A stretch of 64,000 bases of DNA from an uncultured Geobacter sp. (lineage in GTDB: Bacteria > Desulfobacterota > Desulfuromonadia > Geobacterales > DSM-12255): assembly GCA_937860145.1 (NCBI GenBank), contig CALMBF010000078.1:1-64000 (forward strand), read 5' to 3'. The translations under genes and the position numbers were made by a program. Shown here piece after piece: positions 39,359 through 49,779 of this stretch. The first letter of the stretch is position 1. Every line of letters begins with the position of its first letter. The notes below the pieces were generated by a model. It saw nothing but the letters and a program-made list of their open reading frames with translations. It was not told the DNA's origin and did not search any database.

Positions 39359-40660
39359 TCAGCGAATGGCCGATTTGTAGCGCTGCTCCTGTAGGACGAA
39401 GCTCTCCAGCAGGGTGTCGAAATAGTCCCGGCGGCAGTCGAGATCCCGGATGGAGCCCCCCCGCTGCAGGGCGAGGAAGCGACAGCCGCCGAAGCAGATG
39501 GGGAGGTAGGGGCATTCGAGGCATTCGTCAGTTTGCCAGCGGCTGCCGATGGCATGGGTCACGCCGTAGTCGGCCATACCATCCTCCAGAGTGCCGACGG
39601 AGAGCTCCGGATACCCCATGAACATCGGACACTTGTAAAAGGAGCCGTCCCAGTTGACGATAAGATCGTTGTCGAAATCCACCACACAGGCGGACATGGA
39701 GATCTTCCTGGCAGGGAAGCCGCGCCGCAGCGTCTCCTCCCGAAGGAAAGGGCCGGCCTCCAGCAACCACGGCTCGCTGCCGGTAGCGCAGTGACCCATG
39801 TGGTGGGGGACTGCGTCGTCGCCGGACTTGGGCATTATCGGGCTGAACTGGACCAGGTCGAGCATCTCCGGCCTGATCCCATCGGCCAGGAGATGGTCAA
39901 GGAGCCGGGGAAACTCCCGCCAGTTGTCCTGGCCGAAGTTCCCGGTGATCTGCACCGCCACAAGGTCATAAATCTCCTTCAAGTTGGCGACGATGGTGCC
40001 GAAACTCCCCCTGCCGGAGGTGAAGGGGCGTTGCCGGTCGTGGATCTCCCGAGGACCGTCCAGTGTCATGCGCACCCCGCGAAGCCCCAGAGGGAGCAGG
40101 TCCTCCACCACCTTCCGGGTCAGGAGGGTGCAGTTTGTGAAGAGATCGAAGGTAAAGCCTACCCCCCGCTCCCGGCAGGCATCGGCAACCGGGGCGGCGA
40201 TGCCCTTCAGGAGCTGCAGGGTGAGAAGCGGTTCGCCGCCATAGAAGTCGATGTGGATGCTTCTTCCCCGTTCGACCTGGGGGAGGATCTGCCGCTCGAT
40301 GAGCAGCCCTGCCGTCCTGTCGGTCATCTTCTGTTTTCGGCGGAAATCGCCCTCGAAGCAGTAGGGGCAGGCGAGATTGCAGTCCAGGTTCAGGACCGCG
40401 GTAATGTTGAACAGCCCCTTGCGCGCGGCCACGTCGGAGAGCAGTCCCCTTGCCTCCTCGAGTTCAGCGTCCGGGTCGGGGACGAGGATGCCGATGCGGG
40501 CAAGCTTTTCAGTAGTTACCGTATCGAGGTCGCCGGAGTGGATCGCCTCAAGAAGAGGATCGGAAATCCGGGCCAGGGAACCGCGCCGGGTTGAATAGAT
40601 GAGACTGTTGCCGGGGTTCTCCTTGCAGGAGTAAACCCGGAGATACCTTGATAGCTGCAT
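39359..40660 (-). CDS. Radical SAM/SPASM peptide maturase (geopeptide-type)
   Basis: 433-residue radical SAM enzyme with a SPASM domain. An N-terminal RiPP-recognition-like region (1-85) precedes the cluster motif LDCNLACPYCFEG (Cys94, Cys98, Cys101), followed by DFYGGEPLL and MTLDGPREIHDRQRPF. The C-terminal part has SPASM cysteines in ISMSACVVDF, FYKCPMF and TDECLECPYLPICFGGCRF. It follows a 34-codon Cys-Cys peptide gene by 54 bp on the same strand. The family matches what I know as the Geobacter 'geopeptide' maturase; no search could be run. By analogy it would cross-link or otherwise modify the peptide's core, probably at the cysteines. Confidence 0.88.
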   Translation of the reverse strand: MQLSRYLRVYSCKENPGNSLIYSTRRGSLARISDPLLEAIHSGDLDTVTTEKLARIGILVPDPDAELEEARGLLSDVAARKGLFNITAVLNLDCNLACPYCFEGDFRRKQKMTDRTAGLLIERQILPQVERGRSIHIDFYGGEPLLTLQLLKGIAAPVADACRERGVGFTFDLFTNCTLLTRKVVEDLLPLGLRGVRMTLDGPREIHDRQRPFTSGRGSFGTIVANLKEIYDLVAVQITGNFGQDNWREFPRLLDHLLADGIRPEMLDLVQFSPIMPKSGDDAVPHHMGHCATGSEPWLLEAGPFLREETLRRGFPARKISMSACVVDFDNDLIVNWDGSFYKCPMFMGYPELSVGTLEDGMADYGVTHAIGSRWQTDECLECPYLPICFGGCRFLALQRGGSIRDLDCRRDYFDTLLESFVLQEQRYKSAIR

Positions 40661-40678
40661 GAATGCTCCTCAAAAGAA

Positions 40679-40706
40679 GAGGGGGGGCAGCCGCCCCCCC
40701 CCCTCT
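40679..40706 (-). terminator. G/C hairpin between precursor and maturase
   Basis: A run of G (40681-40687) pairs with a run of C (40694-40703) around GGCAGCC, flanked by GAG/CTC. On the minus strand a U-rich CTTCTTTT follows, then the maturase ribosome site GAGGAG. It probably works as an attenuator that keeps peptide output above enzyme output. Confidence 0.6.
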
Positions 40707-40714
40707 CGTCATCT

Positions 40715-40819
40715 CTACTTGATTTTTGCGCTGTTACCCGACGGGCAACATGCATTCACGACCGTTGTAGCATCATGTCCCTCGTCCAGCACTTCCAGCT
40801 CGTTCGCGTTCAGGTCCAT
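40715..40819 (-). CDS. RiPP precursor peptide (geopeptide-like), 34 aa
   Basis: A 34-codon gene with GGGAGG seven bases before its ATG (40817-40819) and a TAG stop at 40715-40717. The leader begins MDLNANELEVLDEG and is acidic, as in many substrates of radical SAM maturases. The C-terminal core holds the pair Cys24-Cys25 followed by Pro26 and ends SGNSAKIK. The three-gene order precursor, hairpin, maturase and YkgJ protein, plus the strong ribosome site, makes it a real gene despite its size. No protease, exporter or immunity gene is adjacent. The nature of the modification is unknown. Confidence 0.85.
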   Translation of the reverse strand: MDLNANELEVLDEGHDATTVVNACCPSGNSAKIK

Positions 40820-40976
40820 ATCAAAACCTCCCAATGTAAAATGCATCCCGAAGGATGGTGCATCACCGAATTAGTGGACAATTGGGTCTACATTTGTTAT
40901 AAAACCGCTGCTGTTATTGATCCGAACGCCTCTCATGAAGCGTTTATACAGCTGACTATTTTTTCCTGCAAGAGGA
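40820..40976. promoter_or_regulatory. Divergent promoter region, RiPP operon / TonB receptor
   Basis: 157 bp between two divergent starts. A near-palindrome ATGCATCC-CGAA-GGATGGTGCAT (40841-40863) sits about 20 bp upstream of the precursor ATG and could bind a regulator serving both operons. I found no clear sigma54 site (TGGC...TTGC) and no strong sigma70 pair. Confidence 0.35.
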
Positions 40977-42857
40977 ATGTTCGTGCGGAAAACCTGTTAT
41001 GCAATCCTGACTGTCATTGTCATTGCCCTTGCACTCACCACAGTGAATGCGGCTGCAGACGAACTTTCCGATGAACTTTTCCCCCTCGGGTTATCACCGA
41101 GCAACTCCCAGATCGTCACCACCTCCCGCATCCCCCGCCCCATCTCCAAGATTGCCGAGAACGTCACCGTCATCACCGCCGAGCAGATCGCGACCCTGAA
41201 CGCCCACACCCTGGCCGACGTACTGAACACCGTTCCCGGCATCCAGATGAACCACACCCGTACCCCCGGCAGTTTACCTGTGATCTACCTCCAGGGTAAG
41301 TCGGAAAGCCACGTAAGGGTCCTCATCGACGGGGTGCCCCAGAACGAACTGGCCGGCAACTTCAGCGACACGGGCTCAATTCCTGCCCACTACATCGAGC
41401 GAATCGAGATCATCAAGGGGGCAGCCTCCGCCGCCTGGGGACCGGCCCTTGCCGGGGTGGTCAATGTCATCACCAAGTCCCCCGATCCCGAGCGGAAGAT
41501 CGGCGGTTCAGGATTTGCCAGCTACGGAGAGAGGGGAACCAGCGACCTGCACCTTGACGCGAGCGGGACCCTTGACCGCCTCGGCTACTACCTCTCCGGC
41601 AACACCCTCTACTCCAAGGGGTTTCGCCTCAATAACGGCGTCAACAACAAGAACCTGTTCGGGAAATTCACCTACGACCTCCCGAGCAACGGGACCTTGA
41701 CCCTCGGCCTTGACTACCGGGACACCGACCGGGGTATCGTCGCCACCCCCGACCCTTTCCTGGATTACCGGGAAAGAATCACTGCCAGATACTTCTCCGG
41801 TTACCTCTCCCTTACTCAGCCCCTTGCTGAGAAACTTACCCTCGACCTCCTCTATCGGGAATGGCACAGTAAGCTTCACGACACCCAAAGGAACTTTGCC
41901 GATACCGGCTTCTGGGCACTTGCCGGCAATACCCAGGCAGTGCGCGGTGCAACCGCCAAGCTGAGCTGGGGCGATTCCATGAGAAGCCTCGTCGGCGGGG
42001 TCGAGTTCGAGCACGCCAAGCTCAGTACGCATGGTCAGTTCGACACGGACTGGGACCTGGTCCTTGACACCACCTTGGACGATTTCAAGCGGATGGACCG
42101 CTACGGCATCTTTGCCAACGGCTCATGGTCCATTGGTGCACTTACCCTCCTTCCCGGCATCCGCTATGACAGGGTCAGCGTCACCAACGACAACTTCAGT
42201 TACACCCTGGGGGCCACCTACCAGCTGACCGACTCCACGACCCTGCGGGCTTACGCCGCCAAGGCCTATTCCCTCCCCTATGCACTCCAGACCGAGGAGG
42301 TTCAGAAGGTCAATACCGTGCAGGCCGGGTTCGAGAGCTCAGTCATACCCCATCTCTGGCTCAAGGGGACCTTTTTCTACAACATCGAGAAGACCCAGAA
42401 ACTTGACCTTTCAGTCATCCCCAATACCGTCACCACCTTCAAATACAAGCGGCAGGGTGGAGAGATTGAGCTGAAATCGACCCCCCTCTACGGCTTCAGC
42501 CTCGGGGGCGGCTACACCTATACGTACCTCACGAACAAGGACACCGGGGAACAGGTCCACAATTACCCGAAAAACCTGGCCAAGATCGCCCTCAACTACA
42601 GCAGCACCGATCTCGGGCTGAAAGGGGTCCTCACGGGGAACTACGTCTGGTGGAACGGGGCAGAAGGCTGGAACGGCCATTACAACCCCGTCATCTGGGA
42701 TATCTCCCTCACCCAGAAACTCTTCCCCGCAAGCGACATGTCGCCGGAGATATTCTTTTCCGGCCACAACCTCTTCAATGGCAGCCAGCACTACCTGGAC
42801 ACCGTCTACAATAACACCCGCCGGTGGATCGAGGGTGGAGTGAGGTTCAAGTTTTGA
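40977..42857 (+). CDS. TonB-dependent outer-membrane receptor, copy 1
   Basis: Outer-membrane gated channel of about 626 residues. A signal peptide (about 1-25, LTVIVIALALTTVNAAA) is followed by a TonB-box-like segment and a plug domain (about 45-165: SRIPRPISKIAENVTVITAEQI, DVLNTVPGIQM, IEIIKGAASAAWGPALAGVVNVITK). A beta-barrel follows, ending in EGGVRFKF with a terminal Phe. ATG 40977 has AGAGGA very close; a GTG at 40983 is better spaced. The ligand is unknown; the plug resembles vitamin-B12/siderophore-type receptors. It is divergent from the RiPP operon and coupled to a substrate-binding protein. Confidence 0.9.
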   Translation: MFVRKTCYAILTVIVIALALTTVNAAADELSDELFPLGLSPSNSQIVTTSRIPRPISKIAENVTVITAEQIATLNAHTLADVLNTVPGIQMNHTRTPGSLPVIYLQGKSESHVRVLIDGVPQNELAGNFSDTGSIPAHYIERIEIIKGAASAAWGPALAGVVNVITKSPDPERKIGGSGFASYGERGTSDLHLDASGTLDRLGYYLSGNTLYSKGFRLNNGVNNKNLFGKFTYDLPSNGTLTLGLDYRDTDRGIVATPDPFLDYRERITARYFSGYLSLTQPLAEKLTLDLLYREWHSKLHDTQRNFADTGFWALAGNTQAVRGATAKLSWGDSMRSLVGGVEFEHAKLSTHGQFDTDWDLVLDTTLDDFKRMDRYGIFANGSWSIGALTLLPGIRYDRVSVTNDNFSYTLGATYQLTDSTTLRAYAAKAYSLPYALQTEEVQKVNTVQAGFESSVIPHLWLKGTFFYNIEKTQKLDLSVIPNTVTTFKYKRQGGEIELKSTPLYGFSLGGGYTYTYLTNKDTGEQVHNYPKNLAKIALNYSSTDLGLKGVLTGNYVWWNGAEGWNGHYNPVIWDISLTQKLFPASDMSPEIFFSGHNLFNGSQHYLDTVYNNTRRWIEGGVRFKF

Positions 42858-43735
42858 GATACCTCATTCTCGCCATAACGACCCTTCTGGTCGCCGCCCT
42901 CCCCGCCGTTGCCGCCGACGTTCTTATCCTCCAGGGGAATACCACCCGGAACATGGAACAGGTGACCCGCCTGGTCCAGAACGACTGCGGCGCCAGCAAC
43001 CGGACCCTTGTCCTCTCCGACTATGCCGAGCTCGACCTGGCCCGGATGGTGCGCGAGGAACGCCCCTCGGTGGTCGTTGCGATCGGCGACCAGGCCGTGA
43101 CGGCGGCGAAAAAGCTGCGCCGGGTGCCGGTTGTCTACGGCATGGCGCTCAACACTGACGAGGACACCCTGGCGGGGAACATCTCCGGCGTCAGCATGAT
43201 GGTCTCCCCCCGCTCCTACCTGCAGCTCTTTGCCGCGCTGAAACTGCACAGGATAGGGATCGTCCACGACCGGAACCACACGGGTGCCTACATGCGCCGC
43301 GCCATCACCATTGCGAACGGCATGGGGATCGAGCTGGTCCCCCTCCAGGTCAAGAGCGCCCGGGAAGTCCAGCAGCGCCTTGTCGAGATGGAGAACAAGA
43401 AAGTCGATGCCCTCTGGCTCCTCCCCGACTCGACTGCCATCGCACCCGAGACGGTCGACAGCTATTTCAGTTTCGCCCTGCAGCACCACATCCCCGTCAT
43501 CGGCTTCTCCGCCGCGTACCTGTCAAAGGGGGCACTTGCCGCCGTGGAACTGACCCGCCAGGAGATCGGCAAGAACCTGTGCGACAAGATCAAGACGAGC
43601 AGGTCGGGGAGCGGCAGCGGCACGATAGACGCCACTGCGGGCAAGCTGTTCTTCAACAGGGCGGTGGCGGAAAAGCTCGGCATCCGTATCCCCTCCGTAT
43701 CCACCCTCCCCGCCGCCCTCTCCACCGACGGCTAA
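42854..43735 (+). CDS. ABC-type substrate-binding protein (PF04392-like), copy 1
   Basis: Periplasmic binding protein of 293 residues with signal peptide (LRYLILAITTLLVAALPAVAA). The two-lobe ABC_sub_bind pattern is seen: VVVAIGDQAVTAAKKLRRVPVVYGMALN, GVSMMVSPRSYLQLFAAL, RIGIVHDRNHTGAYMRRA and VIGFSAAYLSKGALAAVEL. The likely start is TTG 42854, overlapping the receptor stop (TTTGA) and preceded by GGAGTGAGG; a GTG at 42824 is alternative. No permease or ATPase gene accompanies it, so it may deliver ligand to the nearby histidine kinase rather than to a transporter. That is inference. Confidence 0.82.
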   Translation: MRYLILAITTLLVAALPAVAADVLILQGNTTRNMEQVTRLVQNDCGASNRTLVLSDYAELDLARMVREERPSVVVAIGDQAVTAAKKLRRVPVVYGMALNTDEDTLAGNISGVSMMVSPRSYLQLFAALKLHRIGIVHDRNHTGAYMRRAITIANGMGIELVPLQVKSAREVQQRLVEMENKKVDALWLLPDSTAIAPETVDSYFSFALQHHIPVIGFSAAYLSKGALAAVELTRQEIGKNLCDKIKTSRSGSGSGTIDATAGKLFFNRAVAEKLGIRIPSVSTLPAALSTDG

Positions 43736-43761
43736 CAGGAACTCTCGATCTTCACCACGAC

Positions 43762-43784
43762 AAAGGGGAGCGCCGCTCCCCTTT
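43762..43784 (+). terminator. Hairpin after the first receptor-binding protein pair
   Basis: AAAGGGGAGCG pairs with CGCTCCCCTTT, followed by TCTGATAT. It lies 27 bp past the stop and separates the two cassettes. Confidence 0.65.
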
Positions 43785-44012
43785 CTGATATACAGTACCC
43801 TGCTCCCGGTACCTGTTCAGGCGCCTAATTCTCCTCCCCTCCGGCGCCACCCTTTCCTGCCATGGGTCCCTCCTTACTCGCTCGGGACAACCGGGATGCC
43901 GGAATTTTAGTCGATGGACAGCACCGGGATAATCTGGTATAAATTGGAACATTATCGCACTTTTCTCATACTATCCATGGACGCTCTCTCTAGACGGTTC
44001 CGGGGAAATTTA

Positions 44013-45806
44013 ATGCGCATGTCATGCAATGTACCTGTACTGTTATGCCTGCTGCTGACCGTCGCCACCCGGGCGTTGGGCGCCGGCAGCGACGAGCTAT
44101 TGTCCTTCGATCTCGCAGCCCCGGAGCAGCAGGTCACGGCCTCCGCCCGTTCCCCACGCCCTATCTCCAAGATCGCCGAAAACGTCACGGTCGTCACCAG
44201 CGAGCAGATTACCACGCTGAACGTCCATACCCTGGAAGAAATCCTCAATACCGTTCCCGGCATCCAGCTTGATTCACGCCGCACCCCCGGCAGTTGGGGA
44301 GGCTTTTCCGTGAACGGTCTCGGATTCGAGCATGTGCTTGTAGTTCTTGACGGCATCGTCCAGAATGATCTTCTCAACAACTTCCCCGACGTCGGACTGA
44401 TCCCCGCCCAGCAGATAGACCGTATTGAGATCATCAAGGGAGCGGCCTCGGCGGCCTGGGGGCCGGCCCTGGGCGGAGTGATCAACATCATCACCAAATC
44501 CCCGTCCCTTGACAGGAGGGCTGGCGGCAGTGCTCTGGCTACCTACGGCGAAAAGGGGACCACGGAGCTGAATGGAGAACTGTCGGGGACCGTGGACCGG
44601 CTCGGCTACTACATTGGAGGGGGGAATTTTCACTCACGAGGACTACTCCTTGGGAATGGCATCAACTTCAATCATGTTTGGCTGAAGATGACGTACGATT
44701 TGCCTTCAGGTGGCACCATGACCCTCGGCAGTAGCTTGCGGGATGCTTTCCGAGGGCTTGAGGCTTCAGTCCCTCTCAATTACAATGACACGGATAGTAC
44801 CACCTTTTACCATGGGCTCATCGATTACACCCAGCCCCTCGGGAATAACCTGAGTTTCGACCTCTCAGTTCGACATCAATCATACCAGGACACGGTCATA
44901 TGGGGCAGTCTCGACCAAACAGTGCTTCCGGCTGTTTTTCCCGTCAGAGAAATCGTCACAACGGCTAGTACAAAACTGCGTTGGATAACCGCTGCCAATT
45001 CGCTCCTTATTGGAGTCGACGGCGAACATCAAGGACTCACTGATGCACTCGGCGCCCACAACAAGGTAGATCGCTGGGCCACCTACCTGAATGGCTCACT
45101 GACCACGGGCAAGTTCACTCTCCTCCCTGGCATCCGCTACGACCACACAGGTCTCGATACCAACCCGGTCAGCCTCACTCTTGGCGCTACTTGGCAACTG
45201 GAAGAAAAATCGGTTCTACGCGGCTATGTAGCCCAGGGATACGGATTGCCCACAGTCTATAATTCCAGTTCGCTTCAGCGAATCCGGACCGTACAGATTG
45301 GAGCCGAAACATCCTCGATTCCCTACGTCTGGCTTAAAGGTACCCTGTTCTACAACTATCTCTGGGATATCGTGACATCCGTCATCTCCGACAAGCAGAC
45401 CCAGATACGTCAGGGATTCGAACTGGAAGCCAGAACCCTGCCGCTTTTCGGATTCACCCTCTGCTCCGGTTACACCTACAGTGACAACCGGGACAAAGAC
45501 AGCCATAAACCGATACCATTTACCCCCGAGCACTCTCTCAAGGCAAGTCTCGACTACAAGAGCAGTTTCGGACTGAGCGGCATCCTGACCGGGAATTATG
45601 TCTGGTGGAACCCGGATGCATACGCTGCTCGCTACTCCGCCATGATTTGGGATCTGAGCCTGACCCAGAAACTGCTGCCACACAGCAATCTGTCGCCGGA
45701 ACTATTCTTCACCGGGCATAATCTGTTCAACGGTGCCCAATACATAAACGATCTATACAAAAATGCCCCCCGGTGGATCGAGGGCGGAGTGAGGTTCAGA
45801 TTTTGA
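44013..45806 (+). CDS. TonB-dependent outer-membrane receptor, copy 2
   Basis: Paralogue of copy 1, about 597 residues from ATG 44013 (GGGGA upstream). Signal peptide VPVLLCLLLTVATRALGAG, plug domain with SARSPRPISKIAENVTVVTSEQI and RIEIIKGAASAAWGPALGGVINIITK, a barrel, and the terminal EGGVRFRF. The plug and C-terminus match copy 1 closely, while the barrel (about 44.65-45.7 kb) is much more divergent and has less G/C-biased codons. A different ligand from copy 1 is likely. An upstream in-frame start (43914) would add 33 residues with no signal sequence and is rejected. Confidence 0.88.
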   Translation: MRMSCNVPVLLCLLLTVATRALGAGSDELLSFDLAAPEQQVTASARSPRPISKIAENVTVVTSEQITTLNVHTLEEILNTVPGIQLDSRRTPGSWGGFSVNGLGFEHVLVVLDGIVQNDLLNNFPDVGLIPAQQIDRIEIIKGAASAAWGPALGGVINIITKSPSLDRRAGGSALATYGEKGTTELNGELSGTVDRLGYYIGGGNFHSRGLLLGNGINFNHVWLKMTYDLPSGGTMTLGSSLRDAFRGLEASVPLNYNDTDSTTFYHGLIDYTQPLGNNLSFDLSVRHQSYQDTVIWGSLDQTVLPAVFPVREIVTTASTKLRWITAANSLLIGVDGEHQGLTDALGAHNKVDRWATYLNGSLTTGKFTLLPGIRYDHTGLDTNPVSLTLGATWQLEEKSVLRGYVAQGYGLPTVYNSSSLQRIRTVQIGAETSSIPYVWLKGTLFYNYLWDIVTSVISDKQTQIRQGFELEARTLPLFGFTLCSGYTYSDNRDKDSHKPIPFTPEHSLKASLDYKSSFGLSGILTGNYVWWNPDAYAARYSAMIWDLSLTQKLLPHSNLSPELFFTGHNLFNGAQYINDLYKNAPRWIEGGVRFRF

Positions 45807-46684
45807 GATACCTCATCCTGGCCATAACGACCCTCCTGGTCGCCGCCCTCCCCGCCTTCGCCGCCGAGGTCATCATCCTGCAGGGCTCTTCGTCCCGGAA
45901 CATGGAGCAGATGACCCGGCTGGTCCAGAACAACTGCGGCGCAAGCAACCGGACCCTGGTCCTCTCCGACTATGCCGAGCTCGACGTGGAACGGATGGTG
46001 CGCGAGGAGCAGCCGGCCGTGGTGGTTGCCATCGGCGACCAGGCCCTGGCAGCGGCGAAGAAGGTCCGCAGGGTACCGCTGGTCTACGGCATGGCGCTCA
46101 ACACGGACGAAAACACCCTGACCGGCAACATCTCCGGCGTCAGCATGATCGTCTCCCCCCGCTCCTACCTGCAGCTCTTCGCAGCGCTGAAGCTGCGCAG
46201 GATCGGGGTCATCCACGACAAGAACCGCACGGGGGCCTACATGCGCCGGGCCGTCTCCGTTGCAGCCGCTATGGGGATCGAGCTGGTCCCCCTGCAGGTC
46301 CGCAGTCCCAAAGAAGTCCCCCAACGCCTGACCGAGCTGAACAAACGCAAGGTCGACGCCCTCTGGCTCCTCCCCGACTCGACGGCGGTGACCCCTGAAA
46401 CGGTTGACGCCTATTTCACCTTCGCCCACCGCAACAGCCTCCCCGTCATCGGTTACTCAGCCGCGTACCTGACAAAGGGGGCACTTGCTGCCGTCGAACT
46501 GATCCGCCAGGATGTCGGCAGGCAGTTGTGTGACAAGGTCAGGACGAGCAAGAGCGGCGTAACGAGCGGGACATCGGACGCCGCGACGGGAAAGGTGTTC
46601 TTCAACGATGCGGTGGCGGAAAAGCTCGGCATCAAGGTCCCCCTGATGTCGATCCTCCCCCCGACGCTCTCGTTCAATGGCTGA
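45803..46684 (+). CDS. ABC-type substrate-binding protein (PF04392-like), copy 2
   Basis: 293-residue paralogue of copy 1 with the same signal peptide (LRYLILAITTLLVAALPAFAA) and the same TTG start overlapping the receptor stop. Shared blocks include VVVAIGDQALAAAKKVRRVPLVYGM, GVSMIVSPRSYLQLFAALKL and PVIGYSAAYLTKGALAAVELI. Variable patches such as KNRTGAYMRRAVSVAAAMG and the loop TSKSGVTSGTSDA mark the divergence. It is followed after 39 bp by the histidine kinase on the same strand. Confidence 0.82.
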   Translation: MRYLILAITTLLVAALPAFAAEVIILQGSSSRNMEQMTRLVQNNCGASNRTLVLSDYAELDVERMVREEQPAVVVAIGDQALAAAKKVRRVPLVYGMALNTDENTLTGNISGVSMIVSPRSYLQLFAALKLRRIGVIHDKNRTGAYMRRAVSVAAAMGIELVPLQVRSPKEVPQRLTELNKRKVDALWLLPDSTAVTPETVDAYFTFAHRNSLPVIGYSAAYLTKGALAAVELIRQDVGRQLCDKVRTSKSGVTSGTSDAATGKVFFNDAVAEKLGIKVPLMSILPPTLSFNG

Positions 46685-46723: not shown

Positions 46724-48304
46724 ATGAACCCCCTTTTCCTTTCCGGCATAAAGTTCTGGAAGACACTCCGCTTCCGCCTCCTGCTCTTCTTCACCATTCT
46801 GTCAGCCATCATCACCTTCTCGTTCACGGCCTATTACGTCGTCCACCAGAAGAAGACCTCCCTCAACCGGTTGCAGCAGGATGCCAAGCTGATCCTTTCC
46901 GCCCTGAAAACAACAGTCCGTCTCCCCCTCTACGCCGAGTACCGCGAAGGGATCGCATCCTGTATTGCGGAAGTGATGGATAACAACGCACTCGTCGCCA
47001 TCAAGGTCTACAACCCTCACGGGGCTGTCCTCGGTGAAGGACACGGCAAGTCCCTCACCAAGGGGGGGAAGACCATCACCGTCCGTGAGGATGTCTTCAT
47101 CCATGACTACAACTACACCCCCGAATCCCTCCTCCTGGGCGAGGACCCGAAACGGACGAAGCGGATCGGGTACATAGACATCACCATGGATACCACTGCC
47201 GTTGCCGGGCAGATGCGCTCACTCTACCAGGCGGCAATGCTCATAGGGTTCATCTTCTGGCTCAGCACCTCGATCATAGGGTTCCTCCTGTTGCGGCATA
47301 TTACCGAGCCGTTCCAGAAGCTCCTCGCGGGGATCAAGGAGATCGAGAAAGGCAATCTGGAACCGGACATCAGGTTTTCCCCGGGTGACGAGACCGAGCA
47401 GGCGGTGAACGCGGTGAAGGACCTGGCAGCTTCGCTCAGGGAACGGGAAGAGGAGAACCGGCGACTCAATGACGACCTGATCCGCTCCATGAGGCTGGAA
47501 GTCCGGGAAGAGAAAAAGAAGATGATGGCCAAGCTGATCAACACGAACAGGATGACGTCACTCGGCCTCCTGGTCTCGAGCATGGCCCATGAGATCAACA
47601 ATCCCAACGGTTCGATCCGTTTTTCCAACGAGTACGTGGCGAAGATGTGGGGAGCCGCCCTGCCGCTGCTCGACAAGACCCAAAGCAGGGAGGGAGATTT
47701 CCTCCTCTGCGGCTTGCCCTACAGCGAAGCGCGGCACGAGGTCCTGACAGCCTGCGACAACATCGAGCGGTGCACGGCGCGGATCGAGCATGTCATCAAG
47801 GACCTGCGCAGCTACAGCCTCGGAGAACGCCTGAATCCCGACCCGTCCGTTCATATCAATGCCGTTGCCGAGAGCGCCATTTCGGTTCTCCGTGCCCATG
47901 GCAGGGAAAACGAGATGCAGATACTCACCGATTTCCCGGACAGCATCCCCCCCGTGCACGGCAACGCCAAGCAGCTGGAACAGGTCCTGCTCAACCTGAT
48001 CATGAATGCCACCCAGGCATCCAGCGAGCGGAAGGGTACGATCAACGTGGCGACCAGGTATGATGCCACCTCCCGCCAGGTTATCGTGGAGGTCACCGAC
48101 GAAGGGAAAGGTATCGACCCGGACGACATGCCGCGGTTGTTCGACCCGTTTTTCTCGACGCGGATAGATGAAGGGGGGAGCGGACTCGGCCTGTACATCT
48201 CGAAATACATTGTCGACGAGCACGGCGGGACGATATCCGCCGAGTCGACGGTCGGCAAGGGGTCCACATTCAGGGTGGCCCTCCCCTGCTCCTTGCCGGC
48301 CTGA
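46724..48304 (+). CDS. Membrane-bound sensor histidine kinase
   Basis: 526 residues. Membrane segment 1 (about 17-38), a periplasmic sensor region (about 40-165) and membrane segment 2 (about 168-190) are followed by a HAMP linker (about 191-245), a coiled coil, the phosphoacceptor helix with His289 in SSMAHEINNPNGSI, and an HATPase domain with NAKQLEQVLLNLIMNATQAS, DEGKGIDPDDMPRLFDPFFSTR and GSGLGLYISK. It follows the second binding protein gene at 39 bp, so a binding protein may act as its periplasmic ligand carrier. It converges on the NtrC-type regulator, its likely partner. Confidence 0.9.
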   Translation: MNPLFLSGIKFWKTLRFRLLLFFTILSAIITFSFTAYYVVHQKKTSLNRLQQDAKLILSALKTTVRLPLYAEYREGIASCIAEVMDNNALVAIKVYNPHGAVLGEGHGKSLTKGGKTITVREDVFIHDYNYTPESLLLGEDPKRTKRIGYIDITMDTTAVAGQMRSLYQAAMLIGFIFWLSTSIIGFLLLRHITEPFQKLLAGIKEIEKGNLEPDIRFSPGDETEQAVNAVKDLAASLREREEENRRLNDDLIRSMRLEVREEKKKMMAKLINTNRMTSLGLLVSSMAHEINNPNGSIRFSNEYVAKMWGAALPLLDKTQSREGDFLLCGLPYSEARHEVLTACDNIERCTARIEHVIKDLRSYSLGERLNPDPSVHINAVAESAISVLRAHGRENEMQILTDFPDSIPPVHGNAKQLEQVLLNLIMNATQASSERKGTINVATRYDATSRQVIVEVTDEGKGIDPDDMPRLFDPFFSTRIDEGGSGLGLYISKYIVDEHGGTISAESTVGKGSTFRVALPCSLPA

Positions 48305-48366: not shown

Positions 48367-49779
48367 CTACGCGTCGTCGGCGGCTGCGAGCAGCTTGCGG
48401 TTGAGGGTCGGCCTGGTAATCCCGAGGAGGTCGGCGGCATGAGCCTTGCTGCCGCTGAACTTGATCGTCTCCTCGATGATCAGCCGCTCGAACTCATCCA
48501 GGGTGGGGCATTTTTCGAAGATCGCGTGGATGGTGAAGGTTTCATCCTGGGACATTCTCACCAGGCCGGCCGAACTCTTCTTCACCTGGGGAAGGCCTGG
48601 GAAATCCTCGAGTGACATGGTACCACTGCTGTTCAACGCCACGCCGTTCCTGATCATGTTGATCAACTCCCGCACGTTGCCGGGATACTCACCTGCCGAC
48701 AGGGCATCGATGAGGGCGGGGTCGATGTCGGGCGACGTCTTGCTGAGGTAACGCGCCTCTTCGGCGACAAAGTGCTGCACGAGCAGGGGGATGTCCTCGC
48801 TCCGTTCCCGCAGTGGCGGGATGTCGATCTGGTGCGCACTGAGCCGGTGATACAGGTCCCGACGGAATTTCCCGCTGTCGATGAGCTCCCGCAGGTCCCG
48901 GTTCGACGCGGCTATGACGCGGGCATTGCTGCGCATGACCGTGTCAGACCCGGACCGGTAATACTCCCCCTCCTGGAGCAGTCGCAGCAGCGCTATCTGT
49001 GCTTCCTGGCTGAGATCGCCGACCTCGTCGAGGAACAGGGTCCCCCCCTGGGCCCTCTGGATCAGCCCCCCCCGGTCACTCCCCGCAAAGGCGTGGGCCC
49101 CCTTCACGTGTCCGAACAGGGTATCGATGAACATGGCACCATCGAGGCCGCCGGCATTGAAGGGGACGAACTCACCCCTGACCCCGCTGACGCCGTGAAT
49201 GACCGTTGCCACCAGTTCCTTTCCAACGCCCGTTTCGCCGGTTATGAGGATCGGGTGCATGGTCGTGGCAAAGGTTTCGATCAGCTTGAATATCGCCTTC
49301 ATCCTGCTGTTGCGGGTGACGATGCGGGCAAACAGTTCGGGCGACGACAGGGGGTTGCCGAGGAGGAAGTTCTTGAACCTGCGGTTTTCGAGGTTCAGCA
49401 TGTTCAGGCGCAGGGCATTGTGTACCACCTGGACCAGCCTGGTGGTATCGATGGGCTTGACCAGGTAATCGTAGGCGCCGACCTTCATGCAGTTGACGAC
49501 GTTGTTGATCTCGTTGACGGCGCTGGAGATGACCACCGGAGTGTCCGGATACTTGTCCAGCAGCAGGGGCAGAAGATCGCGGCCGGTGATTCCCGGCATG
49601 ACCATGTCGAGGAGGATGACGGCGGCCCCTTCCTGCTCCAGGGATTCGATCGCCTCGGTGCTGCAGCTGAACGACGCTATCGACTTGAAGCCGTTCACCC
49701 GCAGGACTCGTTTCATCCCCTCCAGAAAATCGACGTCATCGTCGATCAACAGTATCCTTTGTCCGGTCTCATTGCTCAT
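48367..49779 (-). CDS. NtrC-type response regulator with altered GAFTGA loop
   Basis: 470 residues: receiver domain (about 7-125, phosphorylation site Asp58 in LLDMVMPG, Lys in YLVKPID), AAA+ domain (about 150-390, Walker A TGETGVGKE, Walker B GGTLFLDEVGDL), and Fis-type helix-turn-helix (about 425-468, GSKAHAADLLGITRPTLNRKL). The loop that normally reads GAFTGA and touches sigma54 is G227-A-H-A-F-A-G-S234, with two extra residues and a lost Thr. It faces the kinase gene tail to tail with 62 bp between stops. Phosphorylation by that kinase is inferred. Confidence 0.9.
   Translation of the reverse strand: MSNETGQRILLIDDDVDFLEGMKRVLRVNGFKSIASFSCSTEAIESLEQEGAAVILLDMVMPGITGRDLLPLLLDKYPDTPVVISSAVNEINNVVNCMKVGAYDYLVKPIDTTRLVQVVHNALRLNMLNLENRRFKNFLLGNPLSSPELFARIVTRNSRMKAIFKLIETFATTMHPILITGETGVGKELVATVIHGVSGVRGEFVPFNAGGLDGAMFIDTLFGHVKGAHAFAGSDRGGLIQRAQGGTLFLDEVGDLSQEAQIALLRLLQEGEYYRSGSDTVMRSNARVIAASNRDLRELIDSGKFRRDLYHRLSAHQIDIPPLRERSEDIPLLVQHFVAEEARYLSKTSPDIDPALIDALSAGEYPGNVRELINMIRNGVALNSSGTMSLEDFPGLPQVKKSSAGLVRMSQDETFTIHAIFEKCPTLDEFERLIIEETIKFSGSKAHAADLLGITRPTLNRKLLAAADDA

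Follow-up and report, generated by a model that had tools for sequence, protein, structure and literature searches.

The window, a stretch of 64,000 nucleotides from a contig of an uncultured Geobacter sp., holds a group of genes that includes a small precursor gene and its probable modifying enzyme. A sequence-only reading of this DNA had proposed a 34-codon RiPP precursor gene with a GGGAGG ribosome site, an acidic leader and a Cys-Cys-Pro core, lying just before a SPASM radical SAM gene and separated from it by a G/C hairpin. Each of these elements is present. The open reading frame and its stop codon occupy positions 40715 to 40819 of the minus strand, the GGGAGG site is located 7 nt 5ʹ of the ATG, and the gene that follows encodes a radical SAM/SPASM protein. 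The leader carries the acidic residues D2, E7, E9, D12, E13 and D16, lacks lysine and arginine before Cys24, and is followed by Cys24-Cys25-Pro26. The features of the locus are as follows.

39359..40660, minus strand: radical SAM/SPASM geopeptide maturase, 433 aa (TIGR04280)
40678..40706, minus strand: G/C-rich hairpin in the spacer between precursor and maturase, resembling a partial terminator or attenuator; comparable hairpin at 82/91 loci
40715..40819, minus strand: precursor gene of the geopeptide family, encoding the 34 aa MDLNANELEVLDEGHDATTVVNACCPSGNSAKIK; under the TIGR04229 cut-off (E=1.3e-5), and 33.7 bits with the leave-one-out profile
40827..40832, minus strand: GGGAGG ribosome site serving the precursor gene, 7 nt 5ʹ of its ATG
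40844..40857, minus strand: inverted repeat CATCC-TTCG-GGATG in the 5ʹ-UTR, about 40 nt 5ʹ of the precursor ATG
40977..42857, plus strand: divergent TonB-dependent receptor, copy 1; conserved partner
42824..43735, plus strand: copy 1 of the periplasmic binding protein (ABC_sub_bind, PF04392), which overlaps the end of the receptor gene; conserved partner
43914..45806, plus strand: TonB-dependent receptor, copy 2 of the tandem duplicate pair
45773..46684, plus strand: PF04392 binding protein, copy 2
46724..48304, plus strand: HAMP-containing histidine kinase with two N-terminal hydrophobic segments; conserved partner
48367..49779, minus strand: sigma-54 response regulator of the NtrC type, in a convergent arrangement with the kinase gene; found at 29 loci with flanks of about 5 kb and at several distant loci

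The geopeptide precursor and its maturase

The link to the ‘geopeptide’ family, which the sequence-only reading had suggested, is borne out on the side of the enzyme, which scores 598.6 bits against the NCBIfam model TIGR04280 for geopeptide radical SAM maturases (cut-off 400). The peptide matches the corresponding precursor model TIGR04229 over residues 8-28 with 24.8 bits (E=1.3e-5), which is below the curated cut-off of 30 bits, and annotation based on that cut-off would therefore omit the gene. However, a profile built without the peptide's own sequence picks it out of the 1610 frames of the window with 33.7 bits (E=1.6e-9), against 9.0 bits for the second-best frame, making the precursor the sole strong match. 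With the same leave-one-out profile, the reversed frames of 100 loci all stay at or below 13.5 bits.

Conservation of the peptide frame beside orthologous maturases, whose absence the sequence-only reading had named as refuting its claim, was examined in 100 regions from the order and is borne out. These regions yielded 104 tblastn matches to the maturase, a total that counts the window and also a few copies that are split. A matching small open reading frame lies 5ʹ of 99 of these 104 maturases, and three of the five without one are at contig ends. The window peptide has the conserved xLxVLDEG...CC sequence of other peptides beside TIGR04280 enzymes, and the consensus of the 98 distinct peptides consists of [LIV]x[VI]L[DE]EG, mostly 8-11 further residues, CC and a variable tail of 6 to 12 residues. 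The core is CC in 95 of the 98 and CTC in the remaining three (loci L103, L134 and L060). The window precursor directly precedes its maturase, whose start is 54 nt past the peptide stop. In addition, at least four of the five positions of GGAGG are matched 5ʹ of the precursor gene in 85 of 95 relatives. An alternative in-frame start at 40846, 27 nt upstream, would produce a 43-aa product, but the ribosome site and comparison with relatives favour the 34-aa start.

It is thus nearly certain that this open reading frame is a genuine precursor gene of the geopeptide family. The score below the TIGR04229 cut-off might instead be taken to indicate a chance frame, with the true maturase substrate lying elsewhere, but this is so improbable as to be effectively refuted by the leave-one-out score, the position, the ribosome site and the conservation.

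The precursor is a new member of a named family that lacks functional characterisation; our search of the open literature found no paper on geopeptides, and an earlier description in subscription papers, which lay outside that search, is possible. The same genome carries a second geopeptide set on contig C116, whose peptide, MNRLEILEEGVGPQLVGPSYSCCWVTVVMIR, is too divergent for direct searches to detect. Another genome of the collection has at least four geopeptide frames and two maturases at one locus (L066, G050:C1:2267000-2280000).

The maturase carries the radical SAM CxxxCxxC cysteines C94, C98 and C101 and the SPASM cysteines C325, C344, C380, C383, C389, C393 and C409, together with an extra C291. 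The CxxxCxxC and SPASM cysteines are conserved among the maturases, in keeping with membership of TIGR04280, and of 141 genomes sampled from the order, 101 (about 70%) encode a protein over the cut-off of this model. By sequence, the nearest solved chain is 5wgg (E=4.7e-33), which we take to be CteB. An AlphaFold model of the maturase (pLDDT 89.4) likewise has 5wgg and 5why as its best fold matches (E about 1e-21), and the title of these depositions refers to thioether bond formation. Judging from this CteB-like predicted fold, the likeliest modification at Cys24/Cys25 is a thioether, which fits the thioether or similar cross-link proposed by the sequence-only reading, and N-terminal strands and helices of the model resemble a leader-binding RRE domain.

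Two potential hairpins flank the precursor coding region. The hairpin between the peptide and maturase genes scans as terminator-like and is found at 82 of 91 loci, compared with 1.7% of shuffled spacers; its stem is typically GGGGAG...CTCCCC, and about a third of examples have a T-rich tail. Most likely, this structure reduces expression of the maturase relative to the precursor. Hairpins scoring at least 9 are present in the 5ʹ-UTR of 29.5% of loci (3.5% of shuffles), and the repeat in the window scores 8, a level reached by 40% of loci and 10.2% of shuffles. Across many relatives the pairing of this repeat is kept while its sequence changes (CATCC/GGATG, CACCC/GGGTG, CCGGC/GCCGG). No known RNA family was found at either hairpin.

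A conserved cassette of receptor, binding protein and kinase genes

The stronger finding at this locus, which was absent from the sequence-only reading, is the cassette of TonB receptor, binding protein and kinase genes that surrounds the peptide-maturase pair. When every gene lying up to about 5 kb away from one of 100 loci was clustered, the families that recur besides the maturase were the TonB receptor (95 loci), a group comprising the binding protein and kinase (87 loci) and the NtrC-type regulator (29 loci, a count limited by flank length), and no further family appeared in more than 12 loci. With tblastn, a TonB receptor was located on the opposite strand at 92 of the 104 maturase matches and on the same strand at eight more, a PF04392 protein was located near 90, and a kinase near 76. 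Within these flanks, the cassette has no conserved exporter or leader peptidase, a signal sequence was not found there either, and no ABC permease or ATPase is present among the conserved neighbours of the binding protein. In the window, the pair of receptor and PF04392 genes is tandemly duplicated (40977-46684) ahead of a single histidine kinase gene. A YkgJ-like CxxCxxCC gene (PF03692; 38603-39337, minus strand) directly after the maturase was considered as a component and rejected, as among the 104 loci only the window has it.

The same genes occur together outside Geobacterales, in named genomes of Nitrospirae/Nitrospirota, Desulfobulbaceae, Desulfobacteraceae and Thermodesulfovibrio. Receptor, binding protein and kinase are all present at each of the 23 distant loci with enough flank, where the gene order is rearranged (e.g. 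receptor, peptide, maturase, binding protein, kinase and regulator on one strand); at a number of these loci the peptide was undetected at the profile threshold used there. Survival of the linkage through such rearrangement argues for a joint function.

Within the order, the cassette-type binding protein was found in 99 of 103 maturase-bearing genomes versus 14 of 38 others (Fisher P=1.6e-13 for 141 genomes, from a table read by hand from two listings, with the maturase scored as present at E below 1e-60 and eight unlisted binding-protein negatives counted as maturase-negative). Among the 150 binding-protein copies listed, 104 are within 10 kb of a maturase, where about 0.6% would be expected by chance. 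The other 46 include some at contig ends and others in single-contig genomes, where second copies without a maturase nearby (L229-L231) indicate that the receptor unit can occur without the peptide. The 3.96 Mb genome from which the window derives encodes five TonB plug domains and four PF04392 proteins over cut-off; three of these plug domains and three of these PF04392 proteins are located at its two geopeptide loci. Our search of the open literature, to the exclusion of subscription papers, found no description of this combination of TonB receptor, binding protein and kinase with a geopeptide.

Upstream sequences were also inspected for promoters. Sigma-54 promoters are not enriched over shuffles 5ʹ of geopeptide or receptor genes. 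The window has TGGACA-17-TATAAA, with TG preceding the second box, at 40875-40903 (plus strand), directed at the TonB receptor gene, and a comparable two-part motif can be picked out by eye in the upstream region of many loci but fails a simple promoter scan.

One further locus, L217 (G012:C154:73000-89000), is syntenic with the window and encodes a receptor, binding protein, kinase and regulator that share 44 to 55% identity with those described here. The phosphatase neighbour is present too, with two such genes adjoining, but the stretch separating it from the receptor lacks the peptide and maturase. The arrangement looks like a receiver without production, as would be expected for a shared molecule; shared siderophores are known to have such cheaters. 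It is also compatible with a receptor unit that has a separate role.

At one extreme the tails of the peptides are polar and basic (CCTGGTNSTRK), at the other strongly hydrophobic (CCIYLYLFVGLI). Across 75 loci, tail properties correlate with receptor distance when maturase distance is controlled (partial Mantel r=0.25, P=0.001); for binding-protein distance the correlation is r=0.29. Both relationships are supportive only, as the Mantel permutations leave some shared ancestry in. The predicted structure of the binding protein (pLDDT 91) is closest to 3lkv, 3lft (solved with L-Trp) and 6hni; the alignment for the PDB sequence search included two kinase fragments, whereas that for the model and genome search did not. 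On the basis of these relatives, a small ligand, for instance one end clipped off the peptide, may occupy the pocket in place of the complete peptide. Because no conserved ABC permease or ATPase is nearby, sensing is at least as likely a function for this protein as transport. An apparent fusion of binding protein and kinase at L121 (an 832-aa open reading frame) was dropped as proof of signalling, because it looks like a frame-joined pair.

Possible roles of the modified peptide

The best explanation for these observations as a whole, for and against which we see the case as evenly balanced, is that the modified peptide is exported, recaptured and sensed as a metallophore-like or signal molecule. 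In such a system, the RRE-like domain of the maturase (an N-terminal beta3-alpha element) would bind the acidic leader at ELEVLDEG, the conserved stretch of the family, and the CteB-like enzyme would modify the Cys24-Cys25-Pro core and tail, most likely forming thioether cross-links from the cysteines, while the spacer hairpin would lower maturase output relative to the precursor. Either the mature peptide or a fragment clipped from it would leave the cell by a system encoded elsewhere and then, probably with bound cargo such as metal, would be recaptured by the divergently encoded TonB receptor. The PF04392 protein would bind the peptide in the periplasm, and the histidine kinase and NtrC-type regulator would receive the report of its capture. 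Conservation of the cassette, the tracking of tail with receptor and the existence of L217 count in favour of export, recapture and sensing. Against this explanation count the lack of a conserved exporter or leader peptidase, the 46 listed binding-protein copies away from a maturase, and the lack of sigma-54 promoter enrichment despite an NtrC-type regulator; the L-Trp bound by 3lft counts against the whole peptide as the binding-protein ligand.

A narrower role, in which the peptide is solely a metallophore that scavenges metal as the anaerobe counterpart of methanobactin and the kinase and regulator are accessories that sense metal or loaded peptide, is somewhat unlikely. Neighbouring cysteines in the core and the receiver-only locus are compatible with this role, as is the precedent of MbnT, a TonB receptor, and periplasmic MbnE, which together recover the loaded RiPP (PMC7558416). 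However, the binding protein belongs to PF04392 and is TrpX-like, unlike the OppA-like MbnE, the tails vary from polar to very hydrophobic with no obvious single metal site, and a thioether would consume the sulfurs of the cysteines.

Slightly less plausible still is a function purely in signalling, wherein the peptide is an autoinducer or cue that carries no cargo, the binding protein and kinase detect it much as LuxP/LuxQ do their ligand, and the receptor only admits the peptide to the periplasm. The conserved neighbours of the binding protein do include the kinase and frequently a sigma-54 regulator, but neither a permease nor an ATPase to match it. Yet TonB receptors mostly serve scarce cargo, and a sigma-54 site shared by the regions 5ʹ of geopeptide genes was not found.

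We consider it improbable that the peptide acts within the cell or envelope without export, for example by tuning the receptor or kinase, with the receptor genes being only co-regulated neighbours. The cassette's lack of an exporter or signal sequence, and the existence of receptor units without the peptide, agree with this possibility, but it is difficult to reconcile with linkage that persists through rearrangement across phyla and with tails that track the receptor.

Relation to known systems and significance

With other members of the geopeptide family (TIGR04229/TIGR04280), the system in the window shares the peptide motif, the CC core and the adjoining maturase, and differs in having a peptide that scores under the curated cut-off. 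The SCIFF maturase CteB, which acts in thioether (ranthipeptide/sactipeptide) systems, is the nearest solved relative of the geopeptide maturase in both sequence and fold, although identity over the fold match is about 19%. To our knowledge, SCIFF systems have no link to TonB receptors.

In LuxP/LuxQ, a periplasmic binding protein reports to a histidine kinase in response to the small molecule AI-2, and, in contrast to the geopeptide cassette, neither a RiPP nor a TonB receptor is involved. Methanobactin is modified by MbnB/C, which are not radical SAM enzymes, and is regulated by a sigma/anti-sigma system. Identity of the geopeptide system with methanobactin was rejected, since its maturase is a radical SAM enzyme and no other modifying enzyme is among the conserved neighbours; furthermore, a PF04392 protein takes the place of the OppA-like MbnE, and a two-component system that of sigma/anti-sigma. 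The two nevertheless resemble each other in outline, given that methanobactin is a RiPP with a cysteine core that is recovered by the TonB receptor MbnT and bound by periplasmic MbnE (PMC7558416). Isopeptidase-type lasso peptide clusters (astexin type) offer a second pairing of this kind, combining a TonB transporter with a sigma/anti-sigma pair, and their products are mostly non-antimicrobial and have been likened to siderophores (PMC9266682). These clusters differ from the geopeptide cassette in peptide class and enzymes, in using sigma/anti-sigma rather than a kinase and regulator, and in lacking PF04392; the locus was rejected as a member of this type because an isopeptidase or lasso cyclase was not identified and no other family occurs in more than 12 loci within about 5 kb. 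The geopeptide cassette thus appears similar to both RiPP/TonB pairings in outline, with distinct chemistry, binding protein and two-component system.

The family name and the peptide-maturase pair were already known, and it is the surroundings of the pair that are new. Although the maturase is widespread in the order, no paper we found assigns the family a role. Its tie to a receptor, binding protein and sensor, which withstands rearrangement, makes the geopeptide a directly testable uptake or sensing system, and three of the five TonB receptors of the genome examined here are candidates for serving it. More broadly, and with a confidence that falls a little short of even, we suggest that anaerobes across Geobacterales, Nitrospirota and other Desulfobacterota may release a radical-SAM RiPP and re-read it through a dedicated receptor, binding protein and two-component sensor. 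This would be a RiPP metallophore or signal of a new class, in which some strains only receive. Such a system would be relevant to Geobacter-type and other anaerobes in the biology of sediment, groundwater and electrodes.
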